A stretch of 64,000 nt of DNA, taken from assembly GCA_037576195.1 (NCBI GenBank), contig CM075101.1, positions 43,276,001 to 43,340,000 on the forward strand, written 5' to 3'. The stretch comes from Phytoseiulus persimilis (taxonomy: Eukaryota; Arthropoda; Arachnida; Mesostigmata; Phytoseiidae). Every line of letters starts with the position of its first letter. Positions within the stretch are counted from its first letter, which is position 1. The notes beneath the pieces are model-generated. The model was not told the DNA's origin, made no database searches, and was given only the letters and a program-made list of their open reading frames with translations. Positions 1-57,630 of this stretch are shown piece by piece. The translations under genes were made by a program, and so were the position numbers.

Positions 1-1009
1 ACACATCACAGCAGACACTCCCTGACCGGGCCTCACGACAACCTCCTCCGGCTTCTCAAAGCGCTGCTCGCGCAGTAAAACACAACTACGACTCATGACC
101 GAATAACAAAAAAGTCGCCTGTCCACTGGTCGACAGACAAAATTGTTGAGCGAGACCCTGCTCGCCTCGCCGCTGTCCCGCACGACTCCTCCGCCCATCG
201 AGGGTGCGAATGTCGCTGAGTCCGTCTTCAACCCCACGGGTCCTCTGGACCGTGTCTCCACCTTACTGCTCACGGCCTCCGCCGAGAGCGTGAGTCTCCG
301 AGACACCTCGGTGGTGCCACTGCTCGAATCCACGGCGCTCTCTCCGCCTGACACCGTCACACCTACAAAAGAGCGGCGCTTTCACCAAACGGCTCCCATA
401 AACTCGGAAGATCCCCTGTTCAAATTGATGGTATCGCTTCCACTCACCAACGGTGAATCCGACGACAAACAGGACTGCTGGGATGACTAGAAGCAAACTC
501 CATCGGCACCAAACACAGATGCCCATCTCGGACCAAGACTCCGAGCCCGGGCGCGCGACACTGCACTCCCGACGATTCCCGAAAAAGTCGACGGATGTCG
601 ACCGCCGTCCGTAGCGGGCGCTTCCTCCCCGATGCTCTCGATCGATGAAGCCTCTGGTTTCCCTTGCCAAACGTTCCATTCCGGCACTGGAGGATGTTCC
701 GCGCTCCAAATCGCTACGCCGGTCTGCACGGCGCCCCTCCTCCGGGTCGAAAAGACCCAACAACCAGCTCCACATGTCAAGAAGATTGGTCTCTTCCCCC
801 ACGGCGGGTCGGGGGCCCTGGCTACTCTGGGTCCTTCCGTGGGCTGGCGACTCCTCTGCTGCACCTCTCGAGGCTTCCTCCTGGGGACGTCCTGGCGTAC
901 GCGATCCGCTGACTGAAGACTCCGCTTGACTCGGAGACTGCCTTGAGCGCCGTGTCAGTCCTGATCCACTCGAACGACTCGATGTGCGACTACCCGAGCG
1001 AAGAAGCAT
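1..1009 (-). CDS. Antisense two-exon gene of Copia-A, copy 1: predicted type II membrane protein (C-terminus off window)
   Basis: I do not recognise a family. The ATG at 1009 opens a frame starting M-L-L-R-S-G, then an Arg/Ser/Pro-rich segment, then a hydrophobic helix (about residues 165-187). A consensus donor (TTG|GTGAGTG, intron from 447) follows the helix, and an acceptor (TTTTGTAG) ends the intron at 363, making it 85 bp and phase 1. Spliced, the frame stays open to the window edge and enters a Cys domain with F-V-C-R, C-Y-S and C-V motifs. Copies 2 and 3 share this design, including the intron position and phase. A TATA-like GGATAAAAGG lies at 1066-1057, just upstream. With no signal peptide and a helix near the middle, a type II membrane topology is inferred. 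Splicing is predicted, not shown. The unspliced frame to 263 is a shadow. Confidence 0.65.
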
Positions 1010-1056
1010 ATTCAAACAAGTTCAAAACGAACTGCACTCCGAACTTTCTCCGCACG

Positions 1057-1066
1057 CCTTTTATCC
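1057..1066 (-). promoter_or_regulatory. TATA-like box of the Copia-A antisense gene
   Basis: The minus strand reads GGATAAAAGG about 50 bases before the antisense start codon. Copy 3 keeps an equivalent box (GGATAAAAAGG near 56145). In the complete element this stretch is deleted (junction near 26329), which would leave its antisense gene without this promoter. Promoter activity is inferred from sequence and position only. Confidence 0.4.
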
Positions 1067-18708: not shown

Positions 18709-18713
18709 CTTTC

Positions 18714-19173
18714 TGTTGGAGATCAGAATCTGAAGCCTGTCGGGCTCAGATCTCGCACGCGTCTGAGAGCATGACACACTCAGATGACTCACAGTACTCC
18801 CAAGTCACGACGTCTGGGAAATGCAACGAAATCGGGGTTCCAACCCCGACAGCAGATGTAAGGGACTGATACAGACAGTCCACATAAAACCAAGAGTACG
18901 GAGTCGGGTTTACAACCCCTCCGACCTACAAACTAGACCATCTGTCAACTTATGTTAAGATGTGACTCATCTGGTGTCTGGACTCTAGACCAATCGTGGG
19001 AGAGCTACGCTCCCCTTCTAGGTATATAAGGACCCTCTTTTCGAATAAACTTCACTGTGGTACAGAGCCTTCTACTCTACACGTCTCTTGCGTTGTCACT
19101 CTTGTTGTCAACTGAGCTAGTGTTCCACACCTTCGACCTCTACCTTCAAGCCCTACGACTTCCAGTCCTATCA
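18714..19173 (+). repeat. Copia-A 5' LTR
   Basis: TGTTGGAGATC to CCTATCA. Promoter TATATAAG at 19023-19030 and poly(A) signal AATAAA at 19044-19049. A hydrophobic GTG-started ORF in U5, seen in every LTR copy, lacks an ATG and is not called as a gene. Confidence 0.95.
19023..19049 (+). promoter_or_regulatory. LTR TATA box and poly(A) signal
   Basis: TATATAAG followed 13 bases later by AATAAA within the LTR. The same pair is kept in the copies near 1945, 27199, 38968 (minus) and 58655, although copy 3 has its TATA changed to a TTATAAGG-like form. The short spacing suggests a very short R region. Confidence 0.7.
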
Positions 19174-19314
19174 CGTTATCAGCCACGTATTCGCTACGTG
19201 ACGACACAGCGTGACTTCGCGATCGACTACTGTCGGGTAAGCTGACCTCTACCTACTCACCTAGCTACAGCTCAGCTAATACAGTTGCAGTCAGGTATAT
19301 TTTTTTTTCGGCCC

Positions 19315-22300
19315 ATGCAAAGTGCTCCAGAGACCGAAGCTTCGTTTAATCTTGACGATTACGAGCTCCTAGAGTCTCCTGAAGAGAGAGTGATGGCTGA
19401 CTCCTCTTCCGCAAGCGGATCTGGTTCAAAATCCAATCATGCATGCAGCATCACATTGGCTGATGACGGCAGAAACTGGCTCGCGTGGTCTTCACTGGTC
19501 ACCGTGGTCCTGCAGAACAGCGGTGACGCCTACAAAGTTGTTTCTGGCGATCTTGTCATAACAGCGACCGGCTATGAAGCTGCGAACGCTATGGCCAAAA
19601 CAATCATCCTTAACTCAATCTCCCCCGTTCTGATAGCCACGTACTTCAGCATTTCTACCCAAGATCTCAATGCGAAAGATCTCTATGAGGCACTGAAGAA
19701 GCGTTTTGCTCAAACAAGCGGTATTGCTCAAGACATAGCTCTTAGCTCGTTCTATAACTTCCGCTACAATTCTTCGAAATCTACGACGAAGAATATAGAT
19801 AATTTCCAACAAATTATGCAGCGCATCGCGCTTGCTGGCACGAAGGTGGACGAGAAACAGGCATGCCAGCGTCTCTTGCAAAGCTTGCCCTCGTCCTGGG
19901 AAGGTCTTCGTTTGTTCTGGAGTGTTAAAACCGGAACCGATCAGACTCTCTCCAACCTTTACGTTCTTCTCCGTGAAGAAGCAATGCGACGTGAAAACTC
20001 CTCCCAGGCGGATCCGACCGCCTTGTTCTCTCGTCTCTCTATTCGCTCAAATAGACGACCCAACTTCAACAATCGTCCTCAATACGATAATCGTCGTAAT
20101 CAGAACTCCTCTTACCGACCTCAATCACGTCCTTCGAATACTTTTCAACGCGCTTCCCGCTTCAATTCCAACTCGTACAACTCCAACTCCAATGCTCGCT
20201 ACCAGAACTCGAATCAAAACCGAAGAGTCGCCTCCAATCCAACTCAGGCTCCACCCGCTAATGCTTGGCGATCCAGCCAACCTCCTCGACCTCGTGTTTC
20301 GACCCAACCCCCACGCTCTCGCCAGCCACCTCTGAATCAGAGGCGCACTTCTCGCCCAACAGCCTATAATGCTGAGACAATCGATCCCTTCGGATCTGAT
20401 GTCGAGGCTCACATTGCCTCTGCTGCGCATAACAATCTTGATTCCTCAGTATGGTTAATCGATTCTGGGGCAACCCACAACATTTGCAATGATTTGGATC
20501 TTTTCCGAAATTATCTCGCATATTCTTGTCCCCGTACTGTGAAAGTCGGCGGTCACCAACAACTTCAAGCGTTTGGTGAAGGCGAGATCTTGCTTGTTGT
20601 GAACGGCTCCAATGGAGAAACTCTTTTACATCTCCATGAGGTTCTCTATGTGCCCGAAATGAGGCGAAACCTCGTGTCGATGGCCTGTCTGATGAATGAC
20701 AATTGGTCAATCACTGCCACTAAGACCACCCTTCGCTTGAACCGAGACTTAGCTACTCTCAGGGTTCGAGTGAACGACGGCCTTTTTGCCCTCCGAGCTA
20801 CAGCTGTGACGGTTCCCATATCTGCCGAATGCTTGCTTTCTTCGTCACAATCAGTCACTCTGCAGAGTGCTCATGAAACACTTGGACACGTTAATAAACG
20901 CCAAGTTCAGCAATTTTTAGCTCGAGAGGGGATTCCCTTCAAAAGGGACCAGATCACCTGCACTGCCTGTATTGAAGGAAAACTGAATCGGGCGACGTAT
21001 CGCTCGAAACCCGATTCAGCTGTACCGCGGTCCCTGGGATACATTTCCACCGATCTGTGTGGTCCTATGTCAACTCCTGGTCTCAAAGGAGAACGTTACT
21101 TTATGAATATGAAAGACACCATGTCTCGTTTCAATCGAATCTTCTTGCTCAAAACCAAAGATCAAGCTCCCGCTCTCATCTAGCAATTCCTCACTTGGTT
21201 TCACACTCAAACCGGTACTCAAGTCAAGCAACTCTTCTGTGACCACGGCCTAGAATTCAATAATGCTCAAGTCAAAGCTTCTCTAGCTTCAATCGGCGCA
21301 GAGCTCGTCATGAGCCATGTTGCCTGTTCTCCCCAGAACGGCCGCGCTGAACGTCAAAATCAAACTATCACTAAACTCGCTAGAACCATGCTCCTTGATT
21401 CAAAACTTCCGAAATTCTTGTGGCCAGAAGCTTGCAGATGTGCCGTTTTCATTCTCAATATCGTAGACGTTTGTCCCCAAACAAACAAGTCTCCGTATGA
21501 AACAATTTACAAAGTGAAACCAAAGATCTCTCATCTACGCCCTTTCGGCTCCCCCTGCTTCATCTACAACGAAGGAGAAACTGACAAATGGACACACCGC
21601 GGCATCCCCGCGTTTCTGATCGGTTACACCGACCGTGTTGACGGCTTTCGTGTGTATCTCCCAGGTTCTCCTCCCTCAATTAGGGAAACCAAAGACGTCA
21701 GGTTCTTGGGGAAGGCACCAAAGAGTGCAGCGCATGTCCCCGGTCTGGGAACCGCCGATGAAGCCACTGATTTTATGGACGCGCATGATTCCTCCGATTG
21801 CGATAGCATCGTTGAGGACCGGCATCCTGACGAGGAGCCCTTTCCGCCTGGAGCATTTGACTCGGCTGACGAAAGTGATTCTGCAGCTACGCGCTCGATC
21901 ACGATACCCCCAATGGAGCCAATGAAAATGAACCTTCGACGCCGTACGAATCTTCGTAAGCCAAAGCGCTACGAAACAGAGGTGCAGCTAGCAGCGCCCT
22001 CTTCACCTGAGCCACAGACTCTTGCACAGGTACTTGCCAGTCCAGAAGCAGAGTACTGGAAAGAAGCAATGGCTGAGGAAATGGCCGCACTTAAAGCTCA
22101 TGGTGTTTGGACATTGGTCGACCCACCACAGAACAAGAAACCCGTAACTTGTCGCTGGGTCTTCCGCAGGAAAACCAATGCTGAAAATGAAATAGACCGA
22201 TACCGTGCACGTCTCGTTGTTCGCGGTTATAATCAAATTCCCGGTCAAGAATTTCAGGAGCTCTTTAGCCCTGTTGCCAGGCTGGACACTGTCCGCGTTT

Positions 22301-23571
22301 TGCTTGCTACGAGTGCATCAATGCATCTAAAACTTCGTCAGTTTGACGTCACTACCGCCTTCCTCTATGGCGATCTCCAGGAACAAATCTGGATGACTCA
22401 ACCCCCCGGATGGTCAGATGACACCGGCAGGGTATGCCTGTTGCACAAAAGTCTATACGGGCTCAAACAAGCTCCGCGATGCTGGAATCAAAAATTGGCA
22501 GATGTTCTACGGAATCTCAACTTCACTCAAAGCCAAGCCGATCACTGCCTATTCTACTGGCACGGCTCAAATGGCGAACTTCTAATGCTAGCAGTGTACG
22601 TCGATGATGGGCTAATCGCCTCGACGCATGAACACTTGATTACCGACACACTTGCCAAGCTGGGAAAATCATTCAAACTCAAGACTTCTCCTCTGAGTCT
22701 TTTCCTTGGCATTCAGATTCATATCGATTCCGATCACAATATCTGGCTCAACCAGTACAAGTACATCAAAAACATCCTGAAAAGGTTCAATCTTGAGGAC
22801 TGTCGTCCCGTCTCAATTCCCGCAGACTCGGGAATATACGACATTGAGCCTACAACTGAAACTCGCGCAGAAGATCGACCTTATCGCCAACTTCTTGGCG
22901 CTCTCATGTTCTTATCTATCTGTACGCGCCCAGATGTCTGTTTCTCCGTGGGTTTCCTAGCTCGCTTCCTTGAGAATTATTCAGAACAACACTGGCAGGC
23001 AGCACTGAAGATCCTGCGTTACTTGCAGGCGACACCCAACCTGTCAATTGTTTACTCCGGAAGCTCGTCCACTCCGCTAGCTGAAACGCTTAAGCTTTAC
23101 TCGGACGCCGATTTCGCTGCTTGTAAACAGACCCGACGCTCGGTAAGTGGCTCACTTGTCACACTTGCCGGCGGTCCAGTCCTGTGGTCTTCCCAACAGC
23201 AACGATCAGTCTCACTGTCCTCCACCGAGAGCGAGTTCATAGCGGTCACTGACTGCTCAAAGTCTGCTCTCTGGCTTCGAACACTCTTCCAAGAATTACG
23301 AATCACTATTCGTCCAGTGATCTTCGTGGACAACATTGGAGCGATAAAGCTCATAGAGAATCCAGTCTTCCACAAACGCACGAAACACATTTCCACGAGA
23401 TTCTTCTTCATTCGTCAACTACACGAACGTAAACAAGTCGAATATCGATATATTCCGACGACAGAGAATCTCAGTGACGGTCTGACTAAACCACTTCACA
23501 AACCAATCTTCGAGCGTCTTCGAACACTGATCGGCTTGCAACCATGGCCGCTACCACAATCTTGCTCATAG
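19315..23571 (+). CDS. Copia-A gag-pol polyprotein, one in-frame stop in integrase
   Basis: The first ATG is at 19315. Gag (about 1-330) is of the copia type and Asn/Arg/Gln-rich at its end, with no CCHC knuckle seen. Protease has W-L-I-D-S-G-A-T-H near residue 380. A pre-integrase H/C zinc region (H-E-T-L-G-H…C-T-A-C) and integrase (S-T-D-L-C-G-P; C-D-H-G-L-E-F; N-G-R-A-E-R) follow. RT has Y-V-D-D-G near residue 1094. RNase H (S-D-A-D-F, S-S-T-E-S-E-F, V-D-N) closes the protein. The only break is TAG at 21181-21183, between the first and second integrase Asp; the frame continues directly to 23571. It is most likely a single nonsense mutation in an otherwise young copy. Confidence 0.92.
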
Positions 23572-24041
23572 TGTTCACGCTCTACGTTCTCTCTGTCCAA
23601 TCCGCGTCTCCGAACTATTTTCGCTTCGAAGACTGCGATGACTCCTGTGTTTCATTAAACATCAGCTGTACAATTAGCAAGAAACCAACCGGTTTCCAAT
23701 GCGCCTGTACACGCTCAGCATCGGCATGCTACAATGAGGCATCCGAGTCCGTGGTCTGTCTGAGGCCTCTTCTCCCTGCTGTGGGTGGCGAACAAATTTG
23801 GAAAGAATTCCGGGATCAACACTACCCCGTCCTTCCCCCTGTCATCATTGACAACAGGTTTCTGCACTATGCTTTCGCAAGTGCAGGCGCTATACTCGCA
23901 TTGGCCGTCTTTCTCGGAACCACGGTCCTTTGCATGATCTACGATAAGCGTAGAAACTATCATTCATTTGCGAACCCATCGCCAAACCCGGCAGTTGATG
24001 GCCCCTACATGCCAACCACGGAGCTCGTCTCTCAACCCTAA
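23544..24041 (+). CDS. Copia-A Cys-rich membrane protein, envelope-like position
   Basis: 165 codons, overlapping the last 28 bases of pol in another frame and starting in a strong context (ACCATGG). Residues 1-20 look like a signal peptide. The ectodomain has seven cysteines (31, 35, 42, 53, 55, 62, 72) and one N-glycosylation sequon (Asn39). A hydrophobic helix at about 109-132 is followed by D-K-R-R and a short tail, giving a type I membrane protein. Its position after pol is where env genes sit. It is far smaller than known fusion proteins and I see no fusion peptide or furin site, so an envelope role is only positional inference. A decayed copy lies at 52858-53323, and a homologue sits in Copia-B. 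Confidence 0.85.
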   Translation: MAATTILLIVFTLYVLSVQSASPNYFRFEDCDDSCVSLNISCTISKKPTGFQCACTRSASACYNEASESVVCLRPLLPAVGGEQIWKEFRDQHYPVLPPVIIDNRFLHYAFASAGAILALAVFLGTTVLCMIYDKRRNYHSFANPSPNPAVDGPYMPTTELVSQP

Positions 24042-24425
24042 TTTCATTTATCCGATGCACTTCATTCCTATTTTACCCATTCGGTCCTAGCATGCAACTT
24101 AGGTAGCACAAACAACTCGAAATGCTCAATTCAATTCTCCCATAGCCAAACTGCCGTGAATCTGCGACGTATCCGAGAGAGGCACCTAGCTGTGCTGTGC
24201 GTGGTTCATACGCATCTCTTCTCTCTCTGTTTCTCAGAGCACTTCTTCGGCCTCTATTCACTTCTTCCACTTCTCTCGCATGATTCTCCTTCGGCATGGC
24301 CTAATATCACGGTATTAACCTGATGTACACCTCCAGGTCCCTCGTGTTTTTCCTTGGTTCCTTGGACGCAGTTTGCCCCAACCGCCAGTATCCCATCGCT
24401 TGGTTTACCCCCCAATCCCTGCACT
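24042..24425 (+). other. Leader between the membrane-protein gene and ORF3
   Basis: 384 bases with no ORF of note. It is kept in copy 3 (53326 onward), where a 475-bp element has inserted. It could hold a splice acceptor for ORF3, but I cannot single one out. Confidence 0.35.
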
Positions 24426-25310
24426 ATGCCCAAACAGTCACCTTTCTGGATTCACGTACTGGAACTCCAGGATCTGCATCGTGTTCCACGCGATGTTGCT
24501 CAGAAGGCGTCAGATCGCCTTTGGCCTCAAATGGATGAACAATCCCGATTTTACTACAGACAGGCAGTCGCGCCTGAATTCAACGAGAAAGCGAAACTTC
24601 TCCACACCGCGGCACGCCGCGCTAGACTGACGGCCCCTGCACTCGCATCGGCAGAATATGCCGAAACACTAATCGTCGAGTGCGCAACAAATCAAAAGAA
24701 AATTTCGGATCTAGAAAACACTGTCGAATGCCTGCGACAAAAATCGCAAAGCTCCTCGGCAAAAATCTCCACAGACCCTGCGCCTGAGGACACTCGGCCC
24801 GCATCGGCAGACCACCTAAATGCAGATCCAGACTATCTGGACGAAGAGGTCTACAGCCCGTCAATCCCAACTGGTGCGGATGACCCTGTCGAATCAGAAG
24901 AAGCTCGTCAACTTGAGCTCGCTGAGACAGAGATCCGCATGCTCAAACAAAAGATCTACGATCTACACGCTGAATCAGAGGCTAAACAGCGCCTCTATGA
25001 TCGAGACAGAGGAAACTGGCATGACGGACGCGCATTCTATCAAAAGAAAATTGCTCGTCTCGAAAACGAACTAGAAGAATCAACAGCCTCAAAATACTTG
25101 TGTGATCACACTGATCACATTGAGCAACTCGAAACTCTCAACAGAAAGCAATCCGAAAGTAATTCCAAAGATCGACAACACCTACTCGATCTCCTTAACG
25201 AAAATTACGAGTTGAAAACACAGCTACTGAAAACGAAAATTGAGCTGAAACGCGCTCAACCAATCGACTGGCCGGAATCCAGTTCTAGCAGTCACAGTGG
25301 TTCCATCTGA
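24426..25310 (+). CDS. Copia-A ORF3: HMG-box-like domain plus coiled coil
   Basis: 294 codons from the ATG at 24426; a 24-codon extension upstream needs a TTG start and is not used. Residues about 4-60 have the look of an HMG-type box: S-P-F at the start, a Trp in R-L-W-P-Q-M, then F-Y-Y-R-Q-A. Heptad-rich helices follow at about 95-130 and 170-280, separated by an acidic linker rich in Pro, Asp and Glu. The end is Ser-rich. An HMG-like box would bind or bend DNA, or RNA as proposed for Maelstrom-type boxes. That role here is inference. A decayed copy is at 54207-55006. It converges with the antisense gene. Confidence 0.75.
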   Translation: MPKQSPFWIHVLELQDLHRVPRDVAQKASDRLWPQMDEQSRFYYRQAVAPEFNEKAKLLHTAARRARLTAPALASAEYAETLIVECATNQKKISDLENTVECLRQKSQSSSAKISTDPAPEDTRPASADHLNADPDYLDEEVYSPSIPTGADDPVESEEARQLELAETEIRMLKQKIYDLHAESEAKQRLYDRDRGNWHDGRAFYQKKIARLENELEESTASKYLCDHTDHIEQLETLNRKQSESNSKDRQHLLDLLNENYELKTQLLKTKIELKRAQPIDWPESSSSSHSGSI

Positions 25311-25457
25311 ACCTCTTCAACGATGTAATGCATGCCAGGTACCCTCAATCATCAACAATAACCATATCAAACTCCTAAGTTACCTCAGACATATGCATGA
25401 ACGTTATATCCTAAGTTAATAAACACAATGCAAGCTTAGAAAAACATCTCTCGTTTA

Positions 25458-26417
25458 TTACACTCGTTCTGTCTCCACAAACGACTCAAACCCACGACAG
25501 AGAGGCAGCGGGATGCGTCCGCTCCTCTTTGCCTGCACCGCGGCCGGTTTCACGGCCCGGCCTGCTCGCAGTGCAACGCACTGCCTCCGCTGCGGAGAAT
25601 AGCAGACCAGACACCGGTCCACTAATCGGCAGACAAAGCCTTCAAGGGAGACCCTCTCGGCCTCCTCAGCGTCCGGCTCGGCTCCCTCCCCCTCAGGCGT
25701 CCTGACTGACGGGGCGTCGTCTCCTGTGACCCACCGGGCCGAACTGGTGGTCACCCTCTCGACAGCCAGCGAGAACCTCGTCGAGGTCTCGTCTTGGCCC
25801 GACCCTCTCGTGGCCACCGCATGGCCGCCCGTCTGTTCCAGGCCTGGAAAGATGAGATGACGTTAAATCAGGCCTCTACAGACACTGACAAAATACGGAA
25901 AATCGACCGCTCAACACTTACCGATTACGGCCGCGCCCACGGCAAGGGCAACAAAACTGATGATCGCCGCGGCGATCATCCTCATTCGGGAGCAGCCGCT
26001 CCCACGGGTGCCCCTTGGCATCCCGTCACTGCTGAGGCCGAGGACGCTGCGGAGACCCCAGCTCCCGGAGCCTGTGCTCCGCTCTGTGGACTGGCGGGCC
26101 CGCTCCCGCGGTCGCCATGGGGAGACACGGCCGACCGATTCGCCACTCGATGATCGGCCCTCCCTCGCCAAGCGATCGGCGCGGAGAGCCTCTGACGCTC
26201 TCCAAGTGGCCTCCGCGGCCGCTGCCGCCGGGCTCTCGCCGATCTCCAGGTCCACCTCCTCCTGGGAGCTCAACCAGGCACCCATCCTATCTTCGGTTGT
26301 TCCTCGAGTCGTTCGGTCTTCCGAGCTGGGGGGCGAAATCAACCGACTTTTTCCCTCATTCTCGCAACTTGGATCAACGACTCTCAACAACCAAACTAGA
26401 ATATTGAGTGAAAACAT
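25458..26417 (-). CDS. Antisense two-exon gene of Copia-A, copy 2 (N-terminus altered)
   Basis: Exon 1 ends at 25922 after a hydrophobic Ala/Val/Ile-rich helix. The intron runs 25921-25844 (78 bp, donor GTAAGT, acceptor TTTCCAG, phase 1). Exon 2 runs 25843-25458 and ends in a stop that overlaps AATAAA. Exon 2 matches copies 1 and 3 in V-S-L-x2-F-x-C-R, C-Y-S and C-V, plus K-P and P-L-C-R-G near the end. The start has been lost: a deletion at about 26329 removed the TATA-like box and ATG region, so the frame now opens in flanking DNA (26417, not a trusted start). The function is unknown; a membrane protein with a Cys domain on the far side is inferred. Confidence 0.65.
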
Positions 26418-26889
26418 CGAAAACTCTACGGATTTTCATCTTTATTGAAAGAAATCATTACTTCCCTGTGAGAGGGGAAAATGGTACAAATCTTGAGACA
26501 CATGGATCATGATTTCCAGGTCAAATCACCAAGAAAAAGGTCATATTTCACACTTCCTCAACTTTTATTTAAATGCCCCCCAACTGGCTCCACCCATAAC
26601 ACGCTCTCCGGAGAAACTACGTCGAACTTCCTAACTGCGCATGCAGTCTCGATGAAAAACGAACGGTTGTAGCGTCTACCAACTACCGCGCATATTCGGA
26701 TTCACGAACAATTCAAACTGAAATAATCACTGTAAAGGAATCCCTCGATTTTCTCAAGAAAAATTCGAACTCGACCGATTCCTCAATCTTCATAGCCAGA
26801 GGGGATATTCAATGTTTAATCACATCACGGAACTATCCAGCGAATACTTTTTCAGCTGCGAGATCTTCGGACTCGACAGCCAGAGGGGA
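26331..26889 (+). other. Conserved 3' non-coding region of Copia-A
   Basis: Near-identical in all three copies (1078-1636, here, 56163-56721). It contains two GCCAGAGGGGAT motifs, about 60 bases apart; the second abuts the LTR and is the likely polypurine tract. A 63-codon ATG frame (26481-26672; also 1227 and 56314) exists in each copy, but near-identical DNA gives it no independent support. Confidence 0.6.
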
Positions 26890-27349
26890 TGTTGGAGATC
26901 AGAATCTGAAGCCTGTCGGGCTCAGATCTCGCACGCGTCTGAGAGCATGACACACTCAGATGACTCACAGTACTCCCAAGTCACGACGTCTGGGAAATGC
27001 AACGAAATCGGGGTTCCAACCCCGACAGCAGATGTAAGGGACTGATACAGACAGTCCACATAAAACCAAGAGTACGGAGTCGGGTTTACAACCCCTCCGA
27101 CCTACAAACTAGACCATCTGTCAACTTATGTTAAGATGTGACTCATCTGGTGTCTGGACTCTAGACCAATCGTGGGAGAGCTACGCTCCCCTTCTAGGTA
27201 TATAAGGACCCTCTTTTCGAATAAACTTCACTGTGGTACAGAGCCTTCTACTCTACACGTCTCTTGCGTTGTCACTCTTGTTGTCAACTGAGCTAGTGTT
27301 CCACACCTTCGACCTCTACCTTCAAGCCCTACGACTTCCAGTCCTATCA
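26890..27349 (+). repeat. Copia-A 3' LTR
   Basis: 460 bp, same as the 5' LTR by eye. Followed by the CTTTC duplication and then Copia-B sequence. Confidence 0.95.
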
Positions 27350-27465
27350 CTTTCATTCATGCACTTTTCACCACAGTCCGTGTAAGTAAAGAATTGGGTG
27401 CTTGGGGTTATCAATGTGGTGATTGCTAAGAGTATCATCGCTGTCTGACCTTTCATTTCTGCCAT
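27350..27465 (-). pseudogene. Copia-B envelope-like gene, proximal part
   Basis: The ATG at 27465 overlaps the pol stop (27455-27453), the same arrangement as in Copia-A. Residues 5-25 form a signal-peptide-like hydrophobic stretch. Cysteines stand at residues 31 and 35, the same numbers as in the Copia-A protein, and Asn37 is in a sequon. Copia-A inserted within codon 39. The frame resumes at 18708 after the insertion, with the third cysteine at residue 42, again matching. It was therefore still open when Copia-A landed. Confidence 0.7.
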
Positions 27466-30400
27466 ACCTCCAATCCTGACAGAGCCCTCTGTTTCAGGAA
27501 GACTCCCTTGTTGCACGGTTTCGTTAACCAGTCGCTTTTCTGTTCCGTTGTTGGTACGTACTCTATGTTGATTTGACCTTTGAGTATACGTCCTTTAAGT
27601 GAAAGTATTTTAGTTCGATATGCCTTGAGCGACGTTAGCTCTGGACTTGTTTTATCAGATTGATTGCTGACATGTTGTCAATCTGAATTGTGTGCTTTTC
27701 TTGAATACCTAGCTCTCCTAAGAGCTTCGTCATCCAGAGAGAGGCTTTTGAGGTCTCTGACGCAGCGATGAATTCTGATTCGCATGAGCTGCTAGCTACA
27801 TTGGATTGTTTGGTTGTGTGCCAAACCACTGGTCCAGACTGTCTCAGAATTAGAGTTCCGGACGTAGATTTTCTGTCTTCGATGTCTGATCCGAAGTCAG
27901 CATCGGAATACACCTGAGTTCCGGTTGAGTCGTCGCTTCTGTACGTGATCCCGAGCGACGGACAGGACCTCAAGTATCTCAAGATTCTGAGAGCGGCATC
28001 CATTCGCTCTTGAGTACATTTGTCCAGGTATCTGCTGAGATATGATGTTGCATAACAAATATCTACCCTACATCCTGTTGCTAAGAACATTATTGAACCA
28101 ATAAGGCGGCGGTATTCCTCAAGGCTATTTGGTCCATCGCTTTTGATTGAATATATCGATGGATCACATGGTGTTGTAGCAGGTCTGCAATTTTGCATGT
28201 TGAATCTCTTTAGTACTTCTTCGACATATTTAGTCTGATGTATGTGGACGTTGAAATTCTCGTCTCTTTCGACTTGAAGACCTAAGAAGTATGACATGAC
28301 CTTCCATGTGATTTTGAAATGTTTCTTCAGAGAGTCGAGGAAGCTCATTGCTAATTCCTCTGTTGCTGTTGCCAGCATGCCGTCGTCGACGTAAATGCAA
28401 ACCAAAACTCGGTCCTTGCCGTTCTGGTAGAAGATGCACGGGTCCGTTTTGCATTGATTGAGTCCCATCTCAATCAGAATTTTCGTTAATTTCTTGTTGA
28501 ACAAGTGACTACTTTGCTTCAACCGGTAGACAGCCCGCTGTAGTCTGAGAACCTCATCTGGTTGAATTCCTTTCAACCCGTCAGGGATTTTGATATAGAT
28601 CTCAACTTCCAATTCAGCCGTTAGGAACGCAGTTCCCACGTCGAATCGGTGCAAATGTAGTTTCTCCTGAGCGGAGATGCTGAGTACTGTTCTCAGACCT
28701 TCAGAACGAGCCACGGGGCTGTACACATTGTCGGCAGAGTAATCTTGACCCTCGCGTTGTCGGAATCCTTTGATTACCAGACGTGCCTTGTACCTTGTCG
28801 ATTTGTTCTGTGGATCCTCTTTCCTTTTGAAGACCCACTTTGACTCTATTGCTCTGCGTCCGGTGGGCAGATCTGCAACCCTCCAGACGGAAAGCTGGTC
28901 CATTGCGTCGAGTTCTTCTTTGATGGCATCCGCCCATAGTTTTTGTTCTGGACTGCTCATAGCTTCATGGTAGGATGATGGCTCACAGTAATTGGTCTCA
29001 TCCTGTTGAGCTTTTCTCTTGTCGCTTGGATGACCCTTCGCTGCATGAGCGTTTGCTTCGGCCCTGAATCTGTATGGGAGACGGATGTTTGACCTGGGCC
29101 TCAGCCTCATTCCGTCCTCTGGTTCATCATCCGAGCCGCTTTGTTCAAGATCGTCTCTCTATCTAAGCGGACGTTGGATGGTTGACCTGGGTCTGAGCAT
29201 TCTGGGATCCTCAGTGTTTTCATCCGAATTACTTTGTTCGGATAATTGCTCATTATCTTCTTCATGCTCTGATGCGTTTTCCTGTGGTTCATCCTCGTTA
29301 TCTTCAATGCGAGGCTGTTGAACTTCAGGTTGCTCAACTTCTGGAGCTCTTGCATCCTCAAGAGCTGAAGGCTTCAGAAAGGTAACATCTCTGCTTTTCA
29401 AAACAGTGAACGTTCCTGGTATCCAAACTCTGAAACCCATTGCATGTGGCATGTAGCCAACCAATCTCCCTTCGATGCCTCTGGCATCAAGTTTTTCTTG
29501 ATTTACGTTCTTGTCGTGAACCGAGCACTTTGTGCCGAAGGGATGCAAAGTTTTGATGTACCCCGCCTTCTTCTTGTAGAAGATTTCATAAGGCGTGAGG
29601 TTAGTTTCCTTGTGGACTGACACTGTGTTCAAAATCTGAACAACGAAATTGGCTGCTTCGGCCCAAAGATACTTCTTCTCACCAAGACCGGCTCCAATCA
29701 GTACTGCTCTCGTCATGTCGAGTACTACCCAGAATGGCCCTTTCAGATTGGCCATTCTGTCGGGGATTTCGCGGGCAGGAGAATGTCTGTTCCGCTACGA
29801 TGTTCTCTAGCATTTTCTTGACATGTCTATTTTTGAATTCTGTGCCTTCATCGGAATGGAATCTCTGAACGTCTCTTCCCATGATATTCTTGAACCATTT
29901 TAGGTAGACTTCGACGCAGTCGGCCGTTTCGTCTTTTGTTTGCAAGAAGAATATCCTCTCGAACTTCGAATACTCCTCAGTGATTAGCAAGAAGTATCTT
30001 GCTCTTCCGATGGATTCGGCGGAAGGATTGCACAGATCTGCAGTGACCGTTCCAGGCTCTTTTGCTTTGGCCTCAACTGGCCTGCTATGGTATGAGATTC
30101 TGGTCTGCTTTGCCGCTACACAGGTCTTGCATTGGTCAAGATCATCTGTGTATCCTATTCCTTGTAGGTCCAAGAACTTCCTGATATAGTTCTTGTTGAT
30201 GTGGGCGAATACCTCATGCAGACTCCTCAAACTGGCCTTTTGTTTTTCTCCCATTGTATTTGTGCCTGTCACATTGAGACCTTGGCAATCTGATGGGATT
30301 TCATCATCTCTCGACTCAGTATCGTGATCAGTGATACTATTCTGGTCATTCTGAGAGGATTTCGCGATTCTTAATCGATACAAGCCTTTTTCCTTAGGCA

Positions 30401-32546
30401 CATGGATCCTTATTTCATTTTTCTGTATCGTGAGCTCATTTTCTCTGAACGTTACGTCAAACTTATTACTTGTCAGCTGACTCACGGATATGAGAATTTT
30501 TCTCATTCCAGGGACATATAGTACGTTTTTCAACTCGAGATCAATTGTTCCGTGTTCCGTTCTGACAGCTAAGCTGATTGTGCCTTGTCCGAAAACCAGC
30601 AGACTTTGGCGGCTACCAAGCCTAACTTCCCGGGTGTCAGATTCTTTCGAGAAACTCGTGAACCATATCTTGGAGTTCGTTATCGTATGGGTCGCGCCGC
30701 TATCGACAAGGAACTGGTCCGCCTTGAACTTGGTTTCGTTAGAATAAGCCATAAGGGCTTCGGCGATGTTGGCTCTAGGAGGTTGTTGCCTGTTGTATCT
30801 TTGAGGACCAAAATTCCTTCTCGGTTTGCGACATTGACTTTTGTAGTGTCCCTTTCCCCCGCAATTGTAGCATCTAACATTGCTCCTGTTTGGCCTAGAG
30901 GGATTACTCTGGCTCTGATGCTGCTGCTGCTCTCCGCTCCCATGTTGGGGCTTGGCAGTGTAAGGCCTTTGCGGGCGCCTTTGGAATCTCCTGCGCTGGA
31001 ATCCTCGATTCCCAACTCTCATCTTGGAGAAAAGCGCAGTCGCTTGATTGAGTTCCTTGTCAGGCCGCTGACGTACGGCCTCAGCCCTGATTATTTCCAT
31101 CAGGCTGGAAATATCCTTGTCTCCGTCGGATCTTGCCGACAAACCCATCCTTAAGGGTTCCCAAGACGGCGGGAGAGCGTTCAAAAGCTGCTCCGTCTGA
31201 ACTTTCATGTCTATGGTTATTCCTGATTCTGCCAGATCAGTTTGGAGATTTCTGAATGTCTCCAGACTTTCGTCAACGGTCTTGTTCTTCGCGAATTTGA
31301 ACGTCATGAGTTGAGTTATTGCTGTGCCTTGGCGAAGGGCGGCTATAGAACTAAATTTTTCTAGAACTTTGGTCCAAGTTTGCGATGGAGTTATTGTTTC
31401 GGTTGCACCGTAGAATAGATGGACTATCAGCTTGTCATTAATCGGAGAGAATAATTGAATTCTCCCTTTCTTGACAGCTGCCTCATATCTCTTTTGAAGT
31501 TTCTTCTGGTCTTCATCCAATTCAGTCTTTGGGGCCTTTGGCGATGGTGGAGTTAACTGGCCTTTGATAACCAACCAGACATCTTCGTCTTGTTTCAGGT
31601 ACAGGGTGGTCATCGTAAGTCGGGAACTTTCTTACCCTCTCTTCTTTTGCTCATAGCTCGGTGAAAAATGGTCGGATTCTGGGAAATTTTTTTGCGTTCG
31701 ATAGCTGGAAGGACGGCGCGTCTTTTTCTCGTCGAATTTCGTGAATCGGTAAGAAATTGAATTTTCTAAATCGGCCTAAAAATTGCAATTTTTTTTTTCA
31801 ACTTTTCTCAAAAAACTGATCGACAAACTTCTAAAGTCAACCGATCGAATTCGAAAGTGCTTGAGTCGAGGCAGGATAGGATGCTGCTCAAACGCCCGGC
31901 AACTCCAGATTTCCGAAAATCCCGCCGAAAAAAAAGTTGTCAGATCGACCCGGCAACTCCATAGTCGGGTAGTCTGGACCAATCTAAGAACTTTTTGCCA
32001 TCGGAAAAATTTTCGAATTCGGCATCCCTGAGGAGCTACGGGCCTTAATGTAAAGAGTACGCGATCTCGTCAGGTGGTCGATCCTGACGTCGAGGTTGAA
32101 ACGATCTTTCGTCCTTCTCACAGATCCTGAGCTAGAAATCTGGAGTTGCCGGGCGTTTGAGCAGCATCCTATCCTGCCTCGACTCAAGCACTTTCGAATT
32201 CGATCGGTTGACTTTAGAAGTTTGTCGATCAGTTTTTTGAGAAAAGTTGGAAAAAAAATTGCAATTTTAAGGCCGATTTAAAGAATCCGATTTTTTACCG
32301 ATTCACGAAATTCGACGAGAAAAAGACGCGCCGTCCTTCCAGCTATCGAACGCAAAACGATTTTCCAGAATCCGACCATTTTTCACCGAGTTATGAGCAA
32401 AAGAAGAGAAAGTAAGAAAGTTCCCGACTTACGATGACCACCCTGTATATTGGCATAAAATTACGCCATGAGACAAAATTCTTGCCGTACAAACTCAGGA
32501 CGACTGGGCATGTGGGAAACTTTGTTCTGTCTTCATCCGAGGCCAT
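27453..32546 (-). pseudogene. Copia-B gag-pol, frameshifted and split by a MITE
   Basis: The true start is the ATG at 32546, beyond the MITE; removing the MITE and one TA keeps the frame. Gag has the copia-type capsid and a CCHC knuckle (C-Y-N-C-x4-H-x4-C). Protease shows F-L-V-D-S-G-A-T-H. Integrase shows T-A-D-L-C, F-H-S-D-E-G and N-G-Q-S-E-R. RT shows Y-V-D-D-G, and RNase H S-D-A-D-F. Frameshifts occur near 29745, 29165 and 27640. Around 29100-29190 a short duplicated block (L-R-P-R-S-x-I-x-x-P) appears twice. It is clearly a different lineage from Copia-A, which lacks the knuckle. Confidence 0.85.
31602..32445. mobile_element. 844-bp Tc1/mariner-type MITE in Copia-B gag
   Basis: Ends CAGGGTGGTCATCG and its inverse, flanked by TA on both sides (31600-31601, 32446-32447). 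The inverted arms are about 312 bp (31602-31915 and 32135-32445) and nearly identical. The 220-bp centre has no coding potential. TA flanks and a CAGGGTG end are typical of Tc1/mariner relatives. A diverged copy lies at 61007-61500. Confidence 0.88.
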
Positions 32547-42299: not shown

Positions 42300-42604
42300 T
42301 GTTACGAATGCTTAAAGTGGCATCGTAGGTATCAATGATTTCTAATAAAGAGTCCCGGCTCCGAACCTCTTCTCGCTCGGCTCTCTCGCTGGAATGCCGT
42401 TGGGTTCCTCCTCTCCCGTCCGTGGAAGCCGACGGAGAGCCCGACGTGCATCTCAGACACACACAGTCGAACTGTCGAGACCATCGCGTCTCCCGCCCAG
42501 CCGACCGAGAAAGCAGGTTTGGAGTTGGCTCGCTACCTTCTCACACTCCGGCTTTTCCTTGTGTGTTCTAGTCTACCGTACCTGGTCCCTGCCGGTCGGT
42601 AACA
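42300..42604 (+). repeat. BEL 5' LTR
   Basis: TGTTACGAATGC to GGTCGGTAACA. AATAAAGAG lies near its start. Followed by TTGGTGTCAGACTG, the likely primer-binding site. Confidence 0.93.
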
Positions 42605-43035: not shown

Positions 43036-46000
43036 ATGGATGACAAAGGGGACAGCGATAAAGGTGACGAAACATTCACGGCAGCCATTGCCGAAAGCTC
43101 AGAAAGTAACCAGATCTTTCTTGAGAGGCAAACGCTGACCCTTAGGCGCAGCCGATTTACAAGAATCGCCTCCAGCGCCGAAGTTCTTGACGAGCAGACG
43201 GAACATTCCCTCGCACAGCTCAAAATCGCACAACGCTTGGCACATTCGCTCGACAAAGCGTTTGCGGAATTGACCGAAGCGTTCACCCGTCTCACTGCGT
43301 CCCCGGCCATCATGGCCGACAGGAAGAAGATCCAGGCAGAATTTGCCAAACACGAGCAGTACTCCGAGAAAATGGACACAGTCGCGGAGAGCCTGCAAAG
43401 AAGAATCGACGAGCTGAAGGAGTTCCTCGGCATTCAGTCGACTCCAGGTAACACCCTCCAGCAGGAGACCTCACAAAATCAGTTCCAGATGGACCCCGAG
43501 ACCCAACTCGACGAGCAGTGTCTTCAGAACGCCGCGGAGGAACCCAGCCCGACCTACTCCGAGGCCACTCAACAATACAGCGGACCCGGAGCAGACTCCT
43601 ATATAGACATCGCCCCAGGTTCGAGCCCCGGAGTGCCAGCCACGTCCAGTCCCAATCCCGAGGTACCACAACAGGCGTTCCCACAACCAATCTACGTGGC
43701 ACGCGACCCTGCGGCCTCCGTCCCCAGGTTCAACGGCGACCCGGTGCGCTGGGACGAGTTTTGGCACCTTTTCCAGTACTACGTCGACTCCAAACCATTG
43801 GAAGTGACGGAGAAGTGCCGAATCCTCAAGAACGCACTCGTCGGTAAAGCGGCAAGACCAGTTTACCACCTCAAAATTTGTGCCGAAAACTACGAGTTGA
43901 TGAAGGAAATCGCGCAGAAAGAGTTCCAGGACAACACCCAAGCCCGACGGACCCACGTGAGGAAGATCCACGACCTGTGCCGATCAAAGGACCTTCACAG
44001 AGACGATAAGTTGCTCGATTTCGTTACCTCCCTCAAGCAGCACATGCAGTCTCTGGTAATGTTAGGATTCGATTACGCATCGCTTACGGCGACCTTATCA
44101 CCCACCGTTCTCGAGGCGCTCCCCAGGAGCTACGTCAAAAAATTCAACGCCGCCTGGTGTGAGCAGCTCGCGCGGGGAGATCACTGCGAATTAGAACTGT
44201 TGATGAATTTTCTAGAACGCGAGGCCGACCTGATCAAGAAATGTGAAAGGTTAGGCAGAAACTACGAGGGTCAAAGCCATCAGCAAAACCGTAGAGGTCA
44301 GAATTCAAAAAACGGCCACAATTCGCGTCCAGACGAACAGAAACCGGAATACAATCAGAGATCGCAGTACTCTTTCGCCGGCGGCGTCGGATCGGTTGAC
44401 CACTCCTGCATTTTTTGCGCAAAAGATCATGCCAGCTCAAAGTGTTCAAAGAGAATGTCAAACGAGGAGAGACGACGAACGGCGGAATCGAAAAACGCGT
44501 GCTTGAGGTGCCTTCGACGCAATCACTCAGCCCAAAAATGCCGAGCGCGCGTCCCCAATTGCTCAGTCTGCAACGGCAGGCATTCGAGCTTAGTGTGCTC
44601 CCGGCAAAGAGAGCAACGGCCCGCGGATGAAGTGGTGGTGGCGTCCCCCTGCCTCCCGCTGCCCTCCGGAGACGCCGCGAAGAGCGCCTTCCTCCAGACG
44701 GGCTATGTGTGGGTCAGTGCGGGCAAAAACCGCAAAACCATCTGCAGAGCCATCCTCGATCCGGGTAGCCAAGTTTCCATAGTCTCAGACAGGATAGTAC
44801 AATTGCTGAGGTTGAGCCCGGTAGAGCAAAGACTCACCAGTTTCCACGGAGTAGCCGGAAGTGTGTCGGACGGCCAAAAACTAAGCTTAGTCGAATTCAA
44901 AATCAGGAGTCGGTTCTCTCGCGCCGCGATTTCAGCGCGTTGCCTCGCAGTACCCAAGGTGATCGAGGGCATCCTGCCCAGGGCCGTACTGAGCGAGCCA
45001 ATGCCGGAGCTGGCGGACGAGAGACTCGACTCATTCCCAGATGAGATAGACCTTCTCCTCGGCGCCGACGTACTTCCATACGTCTACCGCGGCACATACA
45101 AAAAAATGGGCAGTCTCTTGGCGCAGCCAACCATCTTCGGATGGTTCCTATGGGGTAGCGACGGTCTGAATCAATTCGGCAACTCGGTTGTCACGTCGTT
45201 GGGTGTCATCAAGTCAGTGCGCGAAAGCAGTCAGTCATCGAGCCTAACGAACAAGCCAAAAGACAGCGCGGAATCATTGGAGTTTCTATGGGAGAACGAG
45301 CTGCTCGGAATCGAGCGGGCGGAATCCGACGACGACGCGGCATCAGCGGAAAAAATGGACAGCTTCTTTAGACAAACGGTGAAACGCACCGAAGCAGGCC
45401 GCTACATCGTGTCACTCCCTTTCAAGGCCAACTTGAACACGCTGGGAGACAACCAGAAACTACATACTCCAGATTAATTCAATTCATTAAACAAGCAACC
45501 AAGTCCCCTAAGCTTCTAGCGGCGGTCGACGCCGAGATCAAAAAATATATCGACGCTGGCTACGCCCAGATCGCGCCACCCAGGCAACCAGGCGAGCAAG
45601 CGCATTACCTCTCAATCCTCGCAGTCGCCAAAAAAGCATTCGCAGACTCGCCAGAATTCAAGGTGCGAGTCGTCAAAGACGGCGGCTCGAGAAGCATGGA
45701 CGAGGCGTCACTCAACGACTGCATGGAGCAAGGGCCTTCCCTCCTTCCCTGCATCATCAAGGTGTTGACCAATTTCAGGAGAAAACCTATTGTGCTCAAC
45801 ACAGACATCAAAGCTGCGTTTATGCAGTTTCTCGTCACAAAGCCACATCGCACGTACATGCGATTCTACTGGCCTCTGGGCATCGCGGAAAATCCGAACG
45901 CTCCAATCAAAGAGTTTTGGTCCACAGTTCTGGATTTCGGAATCGTTGCAGCTCCTTGGCTATCCTGTGCAGGCATCCGATACCATCTCGACAGCGAGAT

Positions 46001-49565: not shown

Positions 49566-49870
49566 TGTTACGAATGCTTAAAGTGGCATCGTAGGTATCA
49601 ATGATTTCTAATAAAGAGTCCCGGCTCCGAACCTCTTCTCGCTCGGCTCTCTCGCTGGAATGCCGTTGGGTTCCTCCTCTCCCGTCCGTGGAAGCCGACG
49701 GAGAGCCCGACGTGCATCTCAGACACACACAGTCGAACTGTCGAGACCATCGCGTCTCCCGCCCAGCCGACCGAGAAAGCAGGTTTGGAGTTGGCTCGCT
49801 ACCTTCTCACACTCCGGCTTTTCCTTGTGTGTTCTAGTCTACCGTACCTGGTCCCTGCCGGTCGGTAACA
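49566..49870 (+). repeat. BEL 3' LTR
   Basis: Same 305 bp as the 5' LTR; followed by the CAGTG duplication and Gypsy-D pol. Confidence 0.93.
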
Positions 49871-55171: not shown

Positions 55172-56102
55172 CTAAAACTCAACAAAAATATCGTAACCCC
55201 GACATATCGGAAGCCCCACCGGACCTCCCCGTTTCGCGATAACGGTGTCCGGCTTGACGTTCCGCCCCTCCGCCAACACAACACACCGTCGTTGCACTGG
55301 GCTGTAACATGTCAGCGACGGGCCGCTCAATCGACAGGCGAAACCGTCCAGGCTGACCCCTCTCAATCCCTCCTGGGCTCTCTTCTTCGCCGTCCGGCGT
55401 TTTCGGATGGCCCACGGCGATGCTCGGTCCCCATGCTGCCCTGGTCGCCACCGTGCTCTCCTCTGAGACCAACACTCTCCGAGTGACCTCGGCGCTCCCT
55501 GAATGACTGCCGGCGGCCGGCATCATGTCGCCCCGTACGGCAAGTCCTACGAAGAAAACAACCTCAATTATCTCGCTATCGAAATCATGCCAAAAATCAT
55601 CCAAAAATGATAAAAATTAAGAGCTCACCTGTAATCGCGGCCACAATGACGGCGACTCGGCAGATGATGCACGAGCACATCTCCCAGAGGTCATTCAGAC
55701 CTCCCCAGCTACTGCCGGACAGCCGACTGCTTCGCGGCCCTGGCGACAGCGACCGCTGCTGCGGGTCTCCGAGAGGGATCCTCTCGCGGGCCAGTCTGGC
55801 CGCGCGATCAATGGCCTCCAGCGCTCCGGCGTCTCCTCTCTCGGCGTACTGCTCCGAACGGAGCCGAGCTCGGCGTCGCTGGCGTCCTCCGCCGTGCTAA
55901 GGATGTCGCCCATTGTGAACGTGGACGTCGCCGCCTCGGTGAAATCTCTCTGAGCTGGCTCCGACTGGACTCGCTCCTGCTCTCCGCTGGTTCCGACGCG
56001 GACCCCGGGCAGCCGTCGGGTGCGGATGGATTGCTGAATCGCCGTCTCGGTTCTTCTCACCAGGGGCACTCCTCGAGTCTGGAGCCCTGAGCGGAGATGC
56101 AT
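55172..56102 (-). pseudogene. Antisense two-exon gene of Copia-A, copy 3
   Basis: The ATG at 56102 gives M-H-L-R-S-G, like copy 1. Exon 1 ends at 55629 after a helix rich in Val, Ile, Ala and Cys. The intron runs 55628-55547 (82 bp, donor GTGAGC, acceptor TTCTTCGTAG, phase 1). Exon 2 keeps V-S-L-D-G-F-x-C-R, C-Y-S and P-I-C-R-G before its stop. One frameshift near 55730 (exon 1) and one near 55375 (exon 2) break it. AATAAA follows near 55158 (minus). Outside the Cys domain its protein differs strongly from copies 1 and 2. Confidence 0.65.
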
Positions 56103-56942
56103 ACTAAACAAACTCAAAACAAACTGTACTAATTCCGCCCGCCTTTTTATCCTATCCGCCTAGGGCGAAATCAATCGACTTTTTCCCTCATTCTCGCAAC
56201 TTGGATCAACGACTCTCGGCAACCAAACTAGGAATCTTGAGTGAAACCATCAGAAACTCCACGGATTTTCATCTTCATTGAAAGAAATCATTACTTCCCT
56301 GTGAGAGGGGAAAATGGTACAAATATTGAGACGCATGGATCATGATTTCCAGGTCAAATCACCAAGAAAAAGGTCATATTTCACACTTCCTCAACTTCTA
56401 TTCAAATGCCCCCCAACTGGCTCCACCCATAATACGCTCTCCAGAGAAACTACGTCGAACTTCCTAACTGCGCATGCAGTCTCGATGAAAAACGAACGGT
56501 TGTAGCGTCTACCGACTACCGCGAATATTTGGATTCACGAACAATCCAAACTGAAATAATCACTGTAAAGGAATCACTCGACCTTCTCAAGAAAATTCGA
56601 ACTCGACCGATCCCTCAATCTTCATAGCCAGAGGGGATATTCAATGTTTAATCACATTACGGAACTATCCTGCGAATACTTTTTCAGCTGCGAGATCTTC
56701 GGACTCGACAGCCAGAGGGGATGTTAGAGATCAGAATCTGAAGCCTGTCGGGCTCAGATCTCGCACGCGTCTGAGAGCATGACACACTCAGATGACTCAC
56801 AGTACTCCCAAGTCACGACTAGGGGTCGCAGAACCGGGTATGATACCCGGTTCCGGACCCGGGTATCGGACCCGGGTACCCGGTTCCAGACGCGGGTACG
56901 GACCCGGGTAAATGAGGCGGGTTCTACGATGGCCGGGACCAA

Positions 56943-57630
56943 TCTGGCCATTACTTTCCAACTCTGGAGGGGTGATTCCGAGACCGATCTGAGCATTACT
57001 TCCCAACTCTGGAGGGGTGATTCCGAGACCAATCTGAGCATTACTTCCCAACTCTGGAGGAGTGATTCCGAGACCAATCTGAGCATTACTTCCCAACTCT
57101 GGAGGAGTGATTCCGAGACCAATCTGAGCATTACTTCCCAACTCTGGAGGGGTGATTCCGAGACCGATCTGAGCATTACTTCCCAACTCTGGAGGAGTGA
57201 TTCCGAGACCAATCTGAGCATTACTTCCCAACTCTGGAGGAGTGATTCCGAGACCAATCTGAGCATTACTTCCCAACTCTGGAGGAGTGATTCCGAGACC
57301 AATCTGAGCATTACTTCCCAACTCTGGAGGAGTGATTCCGAGACCAATCTGAGCATTACTTCCCAACTCTGGAGGAGTGATTCCGAGACCAATCTGAGCA
57401 TTACTTCCCAACTCTGGAGGAGTGATTCCGAGACCGATCTGAGCATTACTTCCCAACTCTGGAGGAGTGATTCCGAGACCAATCTGAGCATTACTTCCCA
57501 ACTCTGGAGGGGTAATTCCGAGACCAATCTGAGCATTACTTCCCAACTCTGGAGGAGTGATTCCGAGACCAATCTGAGCATTACTTCCCAACTCTGGAGG
57601 GGTGATTCCGGGACCAATCTGAGCATTACA
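56943..57630. repeat. 45-bp minisatellite, left arm, about 15 units
   Basis: The unit contains CAACTCTGGAGG, TGATTCCGAGACC and TCTGAGCATTACT. Units differ at two or three fixed positions (G/A after GGAGG, C/T in the GACC(A/G)ATC part). Because 45 is a multiple of three, long ORFs stay open in several frames; they are not genes. Confidence 0.92.

Follow-up and report, generated by a model that had tools for sequence, protein, structure and literature searches.

Animal Copia elements are usually regarded as envelope-less and confined to one cell. In a stretch of 64,000 nucleotides from the mite Phytoseiulus persimilis (GenBank assembly GCA_037576195.1, contig CM075101.1, positions 43,276,001 to 43,340,000; hereafter the window), three copies of a Copia long terminal repeat (LTR) retrotransposon, Copia-A, carry a predicted spliced gene for a membrane protein on the strand opposite to gag-pol. 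Several described systems resemble this gene in part. The antisense open reading frames (aORFs) of the plant Ty3/Gypsy elements Retand, Grande (gene23) and RIRE2 are likewise conserved antisense coding genes between pol and the 3' LTR, and the Grande gene has its own promoter (PMC7264820, PMC11963269). However, these are plant Gypsy rather than animal Copia elements, their products are nuclear (Grande) or carry TRP28 and are predicted to bind DNA, and no membrane helix, intron or exchangeable types are mentioned in the available text of these reports (PMC7264820, PMC11963269). Among retroviruses, human T-cell leukaemia virus type 1 (HTLV-1) and human immunodeficiency virus type 1 (HIV-1) also have antisense genes, HBZ and ASP; HBZ has a spliced form, and ASP, likewise a membrane protein, occurs on the viral envelope (PMC10186651). 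In contrast to the Copia-A product, HBZ is a nuclear basic leucine zipper protein (PMC10186651). ASP has two predicted helices, with splicing unmentioned in the available part of that source, whereas the Copia-A protein has one helix and a Cys domain. Both viral genes use promoters in the 3' LTR, while the promoter-like stretch of Copia-A is internal to the element.

Three further systems share single traits with Copia-A. The sORF2/FAST-like proteins of the insect MDG1 group are likewise short membrane proteins of envelope-less retrotransposons, with reported cell-to-cell transfer (PMC11952523). They differ in that they belong to Metaviridae, have 63-107 amino acids (aa), are all encoded in sense by unspliced transcripts and have no Cys domain mentioned in the text available (PMC11952523). 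The sense orientation, 63-107 aa and ectodomain of about 30 residues that mark this group are not those of the Copia-A gene, which is antisense and has about 123-129 residues in exon 2 alone. Recombination of retroviral env likewise exchanges a variable surface gene among similar backbones, according to the accessible portions of two reports (PMC10536682, PMC6630264). However, env is a sense gene with known receptors, whereas the Copia-A gene is antisense and apparently spliced. The env subgroups A-E of avian leukosis virus are an example of the env pattern. The additional ORF3s of bdelloid LTR retrotransposons are also modular extra genes and include membrane proteins, but they belong to other LTR lineages, and the available text describes no antisense gene, using the word once, of small RNAs (PMC5408684). 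Our survey of the literature, made largely without subscription papers, found no animal Copia element with an antisense membrane gene that is spliced, and no exchangeable types of such a gene.

An antisense gene of common plan is present in all three window copies, with its exons, introns and motifs at the positions given in a first-pass annotation of the sequence (Table 1). All three introns have good borders (GT[AG]AG[TC]...AG/G), are in phase 1 and lie directly behind a hydrophobic stretch, as had been proposed. Likewise confirmed were AATAAA behind the antisense stop in copies 2 (25454-25459) and 3, and a TATA-like GATAAAA upstream of the gene in copies 1 and 3. Other statements had to be amended. 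The M-x-L-R-S-G start is found in copies 1 and 3, whereas copy 2, compared with the type-A copy L072, has a gap of about 109 bp where promoter and start belong, so that the start of its open frame near 26417 belongs to flanking sequence. Predicted splicing joins open frames in copy 1, both exons of which are open (exon 2 to its stop in the genome, locus L016), and in copy 2 except for that flanking beginning. What had been described as one gene conserved in three copies proved to be one plan in three different types, with copies 1, 2 and 3 carrying types B, A and E.

Table 1. Positions of Copia-A features within the window
Feature	Position	Strand	Remarks
Copy 2 antisense exon 1, type A, homologous part	25922..26330	-	start and promoter deleted
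Copy 2 antisense intron	25844..25921	-	78 nt, phase 1, G/GTAAGT...CAG/G
Copy 2 antisense exon 2, type A	25458..25843	-	stalk, then C-x8-C-x7-C...C domain; TAA as stop
Copy 1 antisense exon 1, type B	448..1009	-	MLLRSG...
Copy 1 antisense intron	363..447	-	85 nt
Copy 1 antisense exon 2, type B	1..362	-	continues past window edge
Copy 1 antisense core-promoter-like stretch	1029..1065	-	GATAAAA, CAGTT ~30 nt downstream (by eye)
Copy 3 antisense exon 1, type E	55629..56102	-	MHLRSG..., frameshifted
Copy 3 antisense intron	55547..55628	-	82 nt
Copy 3 antisense exon 2, type E	55172..55546	-	frameshifted
Cassette interval unaligned with type-B copy L039	25429..26330	-	backbone ends at 25428, resumes at 26331
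3' backbone flank (antisense 5' side), used for tree	26331..26889		
Copia-A copy 2, complete element	18714..27350	+	LTR identity, target duplication
LTRs of copy 2	18714-19174 and 26890-27350		461 bp each
gag-pol region of copy 2	19285..23571	+	open frames 19285-21183 and 21310-23571
ORF3 of copy 2	23544..24041	+	165 aa
ORF4 of copy 2	24354..25310	+	318 aa, coiled-coil-like (by eye)

The genome searched for further copies comprises 181 Mb in 127 contigs, with four contigs of 28-55 Mb among those seen. At least 43 stretches matched the flank of copy 2 (26405-26889), 30 of which were made into loci, and at least 101 matched ORF4. In representative copies of five types, designated A to E, exon 1 starts with M-x-L-R-S-G, is Arg/Ser-rich and ends in a hydrophobic helix, the best 19-residue hydropathy being 2.28-2.73 in one exon 1 per type. 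The donor follows the helix immediately, and exon 2 is in frame beyond the short intron. Scanning of 35 loci with type-specific patterns, where L008 and L062 are one copy and the type-B pattern also accepted CAA, placed donor and acceptor at the same position in all five types, in 33 of the 34 distinct copies; CAA is seen in the type-B copy L058, and L051 gave no match. The first-pass annotation had named conservation of the intron in other copies as a check, and it was thus found. Intron lengths are 78-99 nt in type A, 85-86 in B, 98 in C (once 62, in one degraded copy), 112-113 in D and 76-91 in E, so that lengths within a type vary by numbers not divisible by three. In the upstream region, each of the five types has copies with GATAAAA or AATAAAA, then CAGTT about 30 nt on (by eye), which we take to be an arthropod-like initiator, and then the start codon; in A_L049 foreign DNA interrupts this region, C_L040 has CAGGT and the spacing in copy 3 is shorter. 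AATAAA stands behind the stop in three A copies, C_L040, D_L043, D_L044 and E_L048, and was not seen within 90 nt past the stop in B_L041, B_L042, C_L059 and D_L074; E_L055 was left as uninformative because the position used is not a stop. Both exons are open in types A (L005, L006, L072, L049), B (L041, L042, copy 1) and D (L043), and among the copies read each exon of types C and E is open, but in different copies. Two type-A genes, L062 (C3:23748xxx) and L063 (C3:23811xxx), continue exon 2 in frame beyond its usual end, with an extra Cys-containing stretch and another hydrophobic segment. At L026/L049 (C3:30124800-30128100), the flank and the type-A antisense gene are separated by an open frame of about 190 codons that looks mariner-like by eye.

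Judged from substitutions between genomic copies, the antisense frame is under purifying selection, the other check that had been named. The ratio of nonsynonymous to synonymous change (omega) was calculated in all six frames for 19 within-type pairs, with both exons of types A-D and exon 1 only of type E, and with the stop codons of broken copies excluded. The predicted frame had the lowest omega of the six in 17 of 19 pairs; the frame that mirrors it on the other strand was slightly lower in pairs A2 (L072/L049) and B2 (L042/L058). Omega in the predicted frame ranged from 0.18 to 0.57, with Fisher p<0.05 in 17 of 19 pairs, the pairs that missed this level being B2 (p 0.1) and D1 (L043/L044, p 0.2).

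The antisense gene exists in at least five very different types, and these are exchanged among similar elements. Identity of the other types to type A is 31-37% in exon 1 and 35-43% in exon 2, yet in a comparison of ten copies the flanks match copy 2 at 91-99% identity. In copy-against-copy alignments the backbone is common on both sides, and most pairs of types cannot be aligned inside the cassette, apart from short stretches near its ends and a 56-nt match between D and E. Copy 2 (type A) and L039 (type B), for instance, align at 97.4% over 1127 nt, not at all over the next 902 nt, and again at 98.8% over 570 nt. The edges of this cassette coincide with the gene, lying just past ORF4 on one side and in the antisense upstream stretch on the other, where L072 (A) and L039 (B) have common sequence up to about 16 nt from the type-A start codon. 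Synonymous divergence (dS), from the visible rows of the comparison only, in exon 2 reaches about 1.5-3.1, or saturation, when A is set against the other types, and is down to 1.1 between B and E, while in ORF4 it is 0.041 between copy 2 and L039. Since synonymous sites are near saturation between types and those of the backbone are not, the types are old and do not reflect fast replacement alone; rapid in-place replacement as the sole source of the types was rejected on these grounds. One broken antisense gene, L068 (C2:6188xxx), has about 36-37% identity to type A in both exons and is perhaps a sixth type.

Exchange between backbones was also visible in a tree of the 3' flank, built from 29 of 32 blast rows after three fragments shorter than 350 nt had been dropped. 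The five types require 15 changes on this tree, where the minimum is 4; shuffled type labels gave a mean of 16.8 changes, and 24 of 200 shuffles were as low as 15. The approximately unbiased (AU) test rejects a single clade for types A (p 2.8e-9), B (3e-39), C (0.0086) and D (5.7e-10), and the starred branches alone force 3, 4, 2, 2 and 2 changes for A, B, C, D and E. In ORF4, copy 2 (A) is closer to the type-B copy L039 (98.9%) than to L072 of its own type (97.3%). One near-identical group contains both types, L009 and L011 having type A and L010 and L018 type B, which points to recent exchange. Genes that best match types A, B and D also occur on diverged backbones, with flank identities of 76-77% (L066/L067), 87% (L034) and 81% (L035), and these genes have diverged too (exon 2 of L066/L067, for example, at 65-67%). 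The types thus appear to have outlived divergence of the backbone.

The same arrangement recurs in Copia elements well apart from Copia-A. ORF3, the sense gene that neighbours the antisense gene and is its likely partner, proved widespread in the Copia families of the genome; searching with it returned 150 scored matches there, 45 at 81-100% identity and 105 at 23-39%, and three relatives in public records at 34-52%. Directly downstream of a low-identity ORF3 match, at L079, an antisense exon 1 ends in a helix with donor G/GTATGT; an intron of about 80 nt that ends CTCCTACAG (by eye) is followed in frame by an exon 2 that has a stretch rich in Ser/Thr and, at its C-terminus, a Cys domain. The cysteine spacing there, C-x8-C-x7-C...C, is that of types A-E, and in an alignment of seven sequences these four are the only invariant cysteines. 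The L079 exon-2 frame was matched 75 times, and many of these matches have open frames of about 326 codons. In a third family, L080/L081, a Ser/Thr-rich frame of 460 codons has the same Cys spacing, with a helix-bearing frame upstream, and its Cys domain has 73 matches. Copia reverse transcriptase (RT) matches lie just upstream of ORF3 on the same strand, at C2:6783002-6783715 (44%) and C4:864846-865568 (41%), in a search that scored 150 of 456 candidates; these identify L079 and L080 as Copia elements distant from Copia-A. We then paired the 105 ORF3 matches outside Copia-A with 94 of the 148 antisense rows (36 of 75 L079-type, 58 of 73 L080/L081-type), after omitting repeats, weak rows and small pieces; among the rows entered, some are second pieces of one gene. 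An antisense match lay within 2.5 kb downstream for 54 of the 105. All 54 are opposite in strand to ORF3, and in 46 of them 86-136 nt separate the match ends.

The predicted protein was also examined by structure and profile methods. AlphaFold2 modelled type-A exon 2 (run together with three other window pieces) as all-beta over residues 61-127, with a block predicted local distance difference test (pLDDT) score of 77-92, the first 60 residues having pLDDT 46-52. Fold searches with this model returned no significant match; the weak matches are mostly what we take to be small OB-fold-like barrels, and no function is shown by them. Pfam had no family at cut-off in exon 1 of A, B or C or in exon 2 of A-E, and the TRP28 domain that marks Retand-type genes was absent from these scanned exons.

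An antisense, spliced membrane-protein gene in this Copia element is supported, at the level of sequence, by frame-specific selection, the place and phase of the intron, the helix, the core-promoter-like stretch and the recurrence of the plan elsewhere. The gene would be transcribed from an internal promoter of the element, immediately 5' of the start codon in the antisense direction, as the TATA-like box and CAGTT pair suggests, into an RNA that runs opposite to gag-pol and ends tail-to-tail with the sense genes. One short phase-1 intron behind the helix, recognized by comparison of copies (76-113 nt; 62 in one degraded copy), would then be removed. As this stretch is an intron in the antisense RNA alone, it would be expected to stay in the sense genomic RNA, the template of reverse transcription. 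The product would be a type II membrane protein, on the topology predicted, with a cytoplasmic part rich in Arg and Ser, a single helix, a stalk and a small all-beta domain in which four cysteines are conserved. Together with sense ORF3, another membrane protein, it may form a module common to several Copia families. Copia-A itself would keep at least five old types, moved between similar backbones by recombination, probably through template switching during reverse transcription. Its role may be that of a surface or particle protein in attachment or cell-to-cell transfer, and frequency-dependent selection, acting through partner specificity, interference between elements or host recognition, could keep the types diverse. 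To this combination of a real antisense Copia gene, an exchangeable cassette and a role at the surface or on particles, in attachment or intercellular transfer, we assign an even chance. The antisense gene is best read as the variable, possibly envelope-like half of a sense/antisense surface module. A more ambitious version, which we regard as tentative and rather doubtful, makes these elements retrovirus-like agents with a surface of two proteins. ORF3 would be the conserved sense partner, and the antisense type II protein the hypervariable one; its discrete types would resemble serotypes or interference groups, be swapped by recombination under long balancing selection and, by antisense coding, save their intron. 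A conserved antisense membrane gene that bears an intron, stands next to a sense membrane gene in several families and exists as old interchangeable types would give such elements a surface biology under diversifying pressure like that of viral coat proteins. It would also be a natural case of a retroelement that retains an intron by coding on its antisense strand. Similar elements that differ mainly in one gene would also make recognition by retrotransposon membrane proteins testable.

Other explanations account for part of the same evidence. The gene may be as described with its product acting inside the producing cell, as a membrane accessory that excludes competitors or counters host defence, and with the types as competing specificities. 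Type diversity, exchange and the helix fit this equally well, and HIV-1 ASP is an antisense membrane protein without a settled role in the available text of its account (PMC10186651); but the neighbouring sense ORF3, which has a Cys-rich part too, and, in two other families, the stretch rich in Ser/Thr and the Cys-bearing end suit a partner exposed at the surface better, and we consider an intracellular product unlikely while still a serious contender. Regulatory antisense RNAs are known in retroelements, as the accessible parts of two sources describe (PMC7264820, PMC10186651), so the antisense promoter and transcript might regulate the element by interference, double-stranded RNA or small RNA, with coding a relic. 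An RNA, however, needs neither frame-specific purifying selection nor conserved cysteines, helix and splice sites, which leaves this idea improbable. Repeated capture of a host gene family, without need for long-term upkeep in the element, would explain both the deep synonymous divergence of the types and an intron like those of cellular genes. Yet representatives of the five types have the same start motif and upstream stretch, an intron at one place and in one phase, and common Cys spacing and edges, all of which suggests descent from a single ancestral gene of the element, and genes of the same plan stand beside ORF3, at one place, in other families; we rate capture a shade lower still. Chance is very improbable. 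The stretch is GC-rich and open frames arise readily in such DNA (25960-26448 on the plus strand is one), so that splice sites could have been chosen to fit, but apart from the mirror frame no other frame has a low, significant omega, the intron recurs in 33 of 34 distinct copies and the same-plan gene recurs in other families.

Several observations weigh against the surface-module interpretation or the steps that lead to it. The mirror frame, which shares third positions with the predicted one, also reaches p<0.05 in 12 of 19 pairs, and those pairs reuse reference copies and are not independent. Among the copies read, none of type C or E has both exons open. The flank tree is weak, with 6 of 26 inner branches starred, and the AU test does not reject a single clade for type E (p 0.10). 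Outside Copia-A, no antisense match accompanies 51 of 105 ORF3 matches, and ORF3 is not nearby for 40 of 94 antisense matches, the latter including some second pieces of paired genes; the splice sites of the third family, L080/L081, are tentative. Comparison by hhalign of Copia-A exon 2 with the Cys domain of the other families was not significant (probability 0.8%, E 0.072), so that the case for homology between families is made by gene plan, position, orientation and Cys spacing. Searches of the protein database, PDB, Pfam, PHROGs, BFVD and viral contigs yielded no relative of the antisense protein.

Copy 2, in which the antisense gene sits between ORF4 and the 3' LTR, is a complete young element. 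Its LTRs match at 461 of 461 positions, which indicates a recent insertion, and it is bordered by a 5-bp target duplication, CTTTC, read from the sequence at 18709-18713 and 27351-27355. A Pfam scan of gag-pol found Retrotran_gag_2, Pol_BBD, SH3_retrovirus and RVT_2; the order of Retrotran_gag_2, SH3_retrovirus and RVT_2, with LTRs and target duplication, places the element in Ty1/Copia (Pseudoviridae). ORF3 has a hydrophobic signal-like N-terminus, a Cys-rich part, a membrane helix and a Pro/Tyr tail. Units containing ORF4 also occur in tandem arrays, at L046 (C2:7017500-7024200; period about 1.72 kb, three units, each with a type-C exon 2) and at L059/L060 (C3:16536700-16553000; period about 1.3 kb).

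Other repeats were seen in the window. A second Copia element on the minus strand (27635-31613), with an RT match and a pol frame that ends early, adjoins the 3' LTR of copy 2. A 300-nt direct repeat of 100% identity (42300-42599 and 49566-49865) encloses open frames at 43036-48662 that look BEL/Pao-like by eye and probably belong to a young element. Two inverted arrays of a 45-bp repeat (56798-58369), 98% complementary over 577 nt, appear to break up the 3' LTR of Copia-A copy 3.
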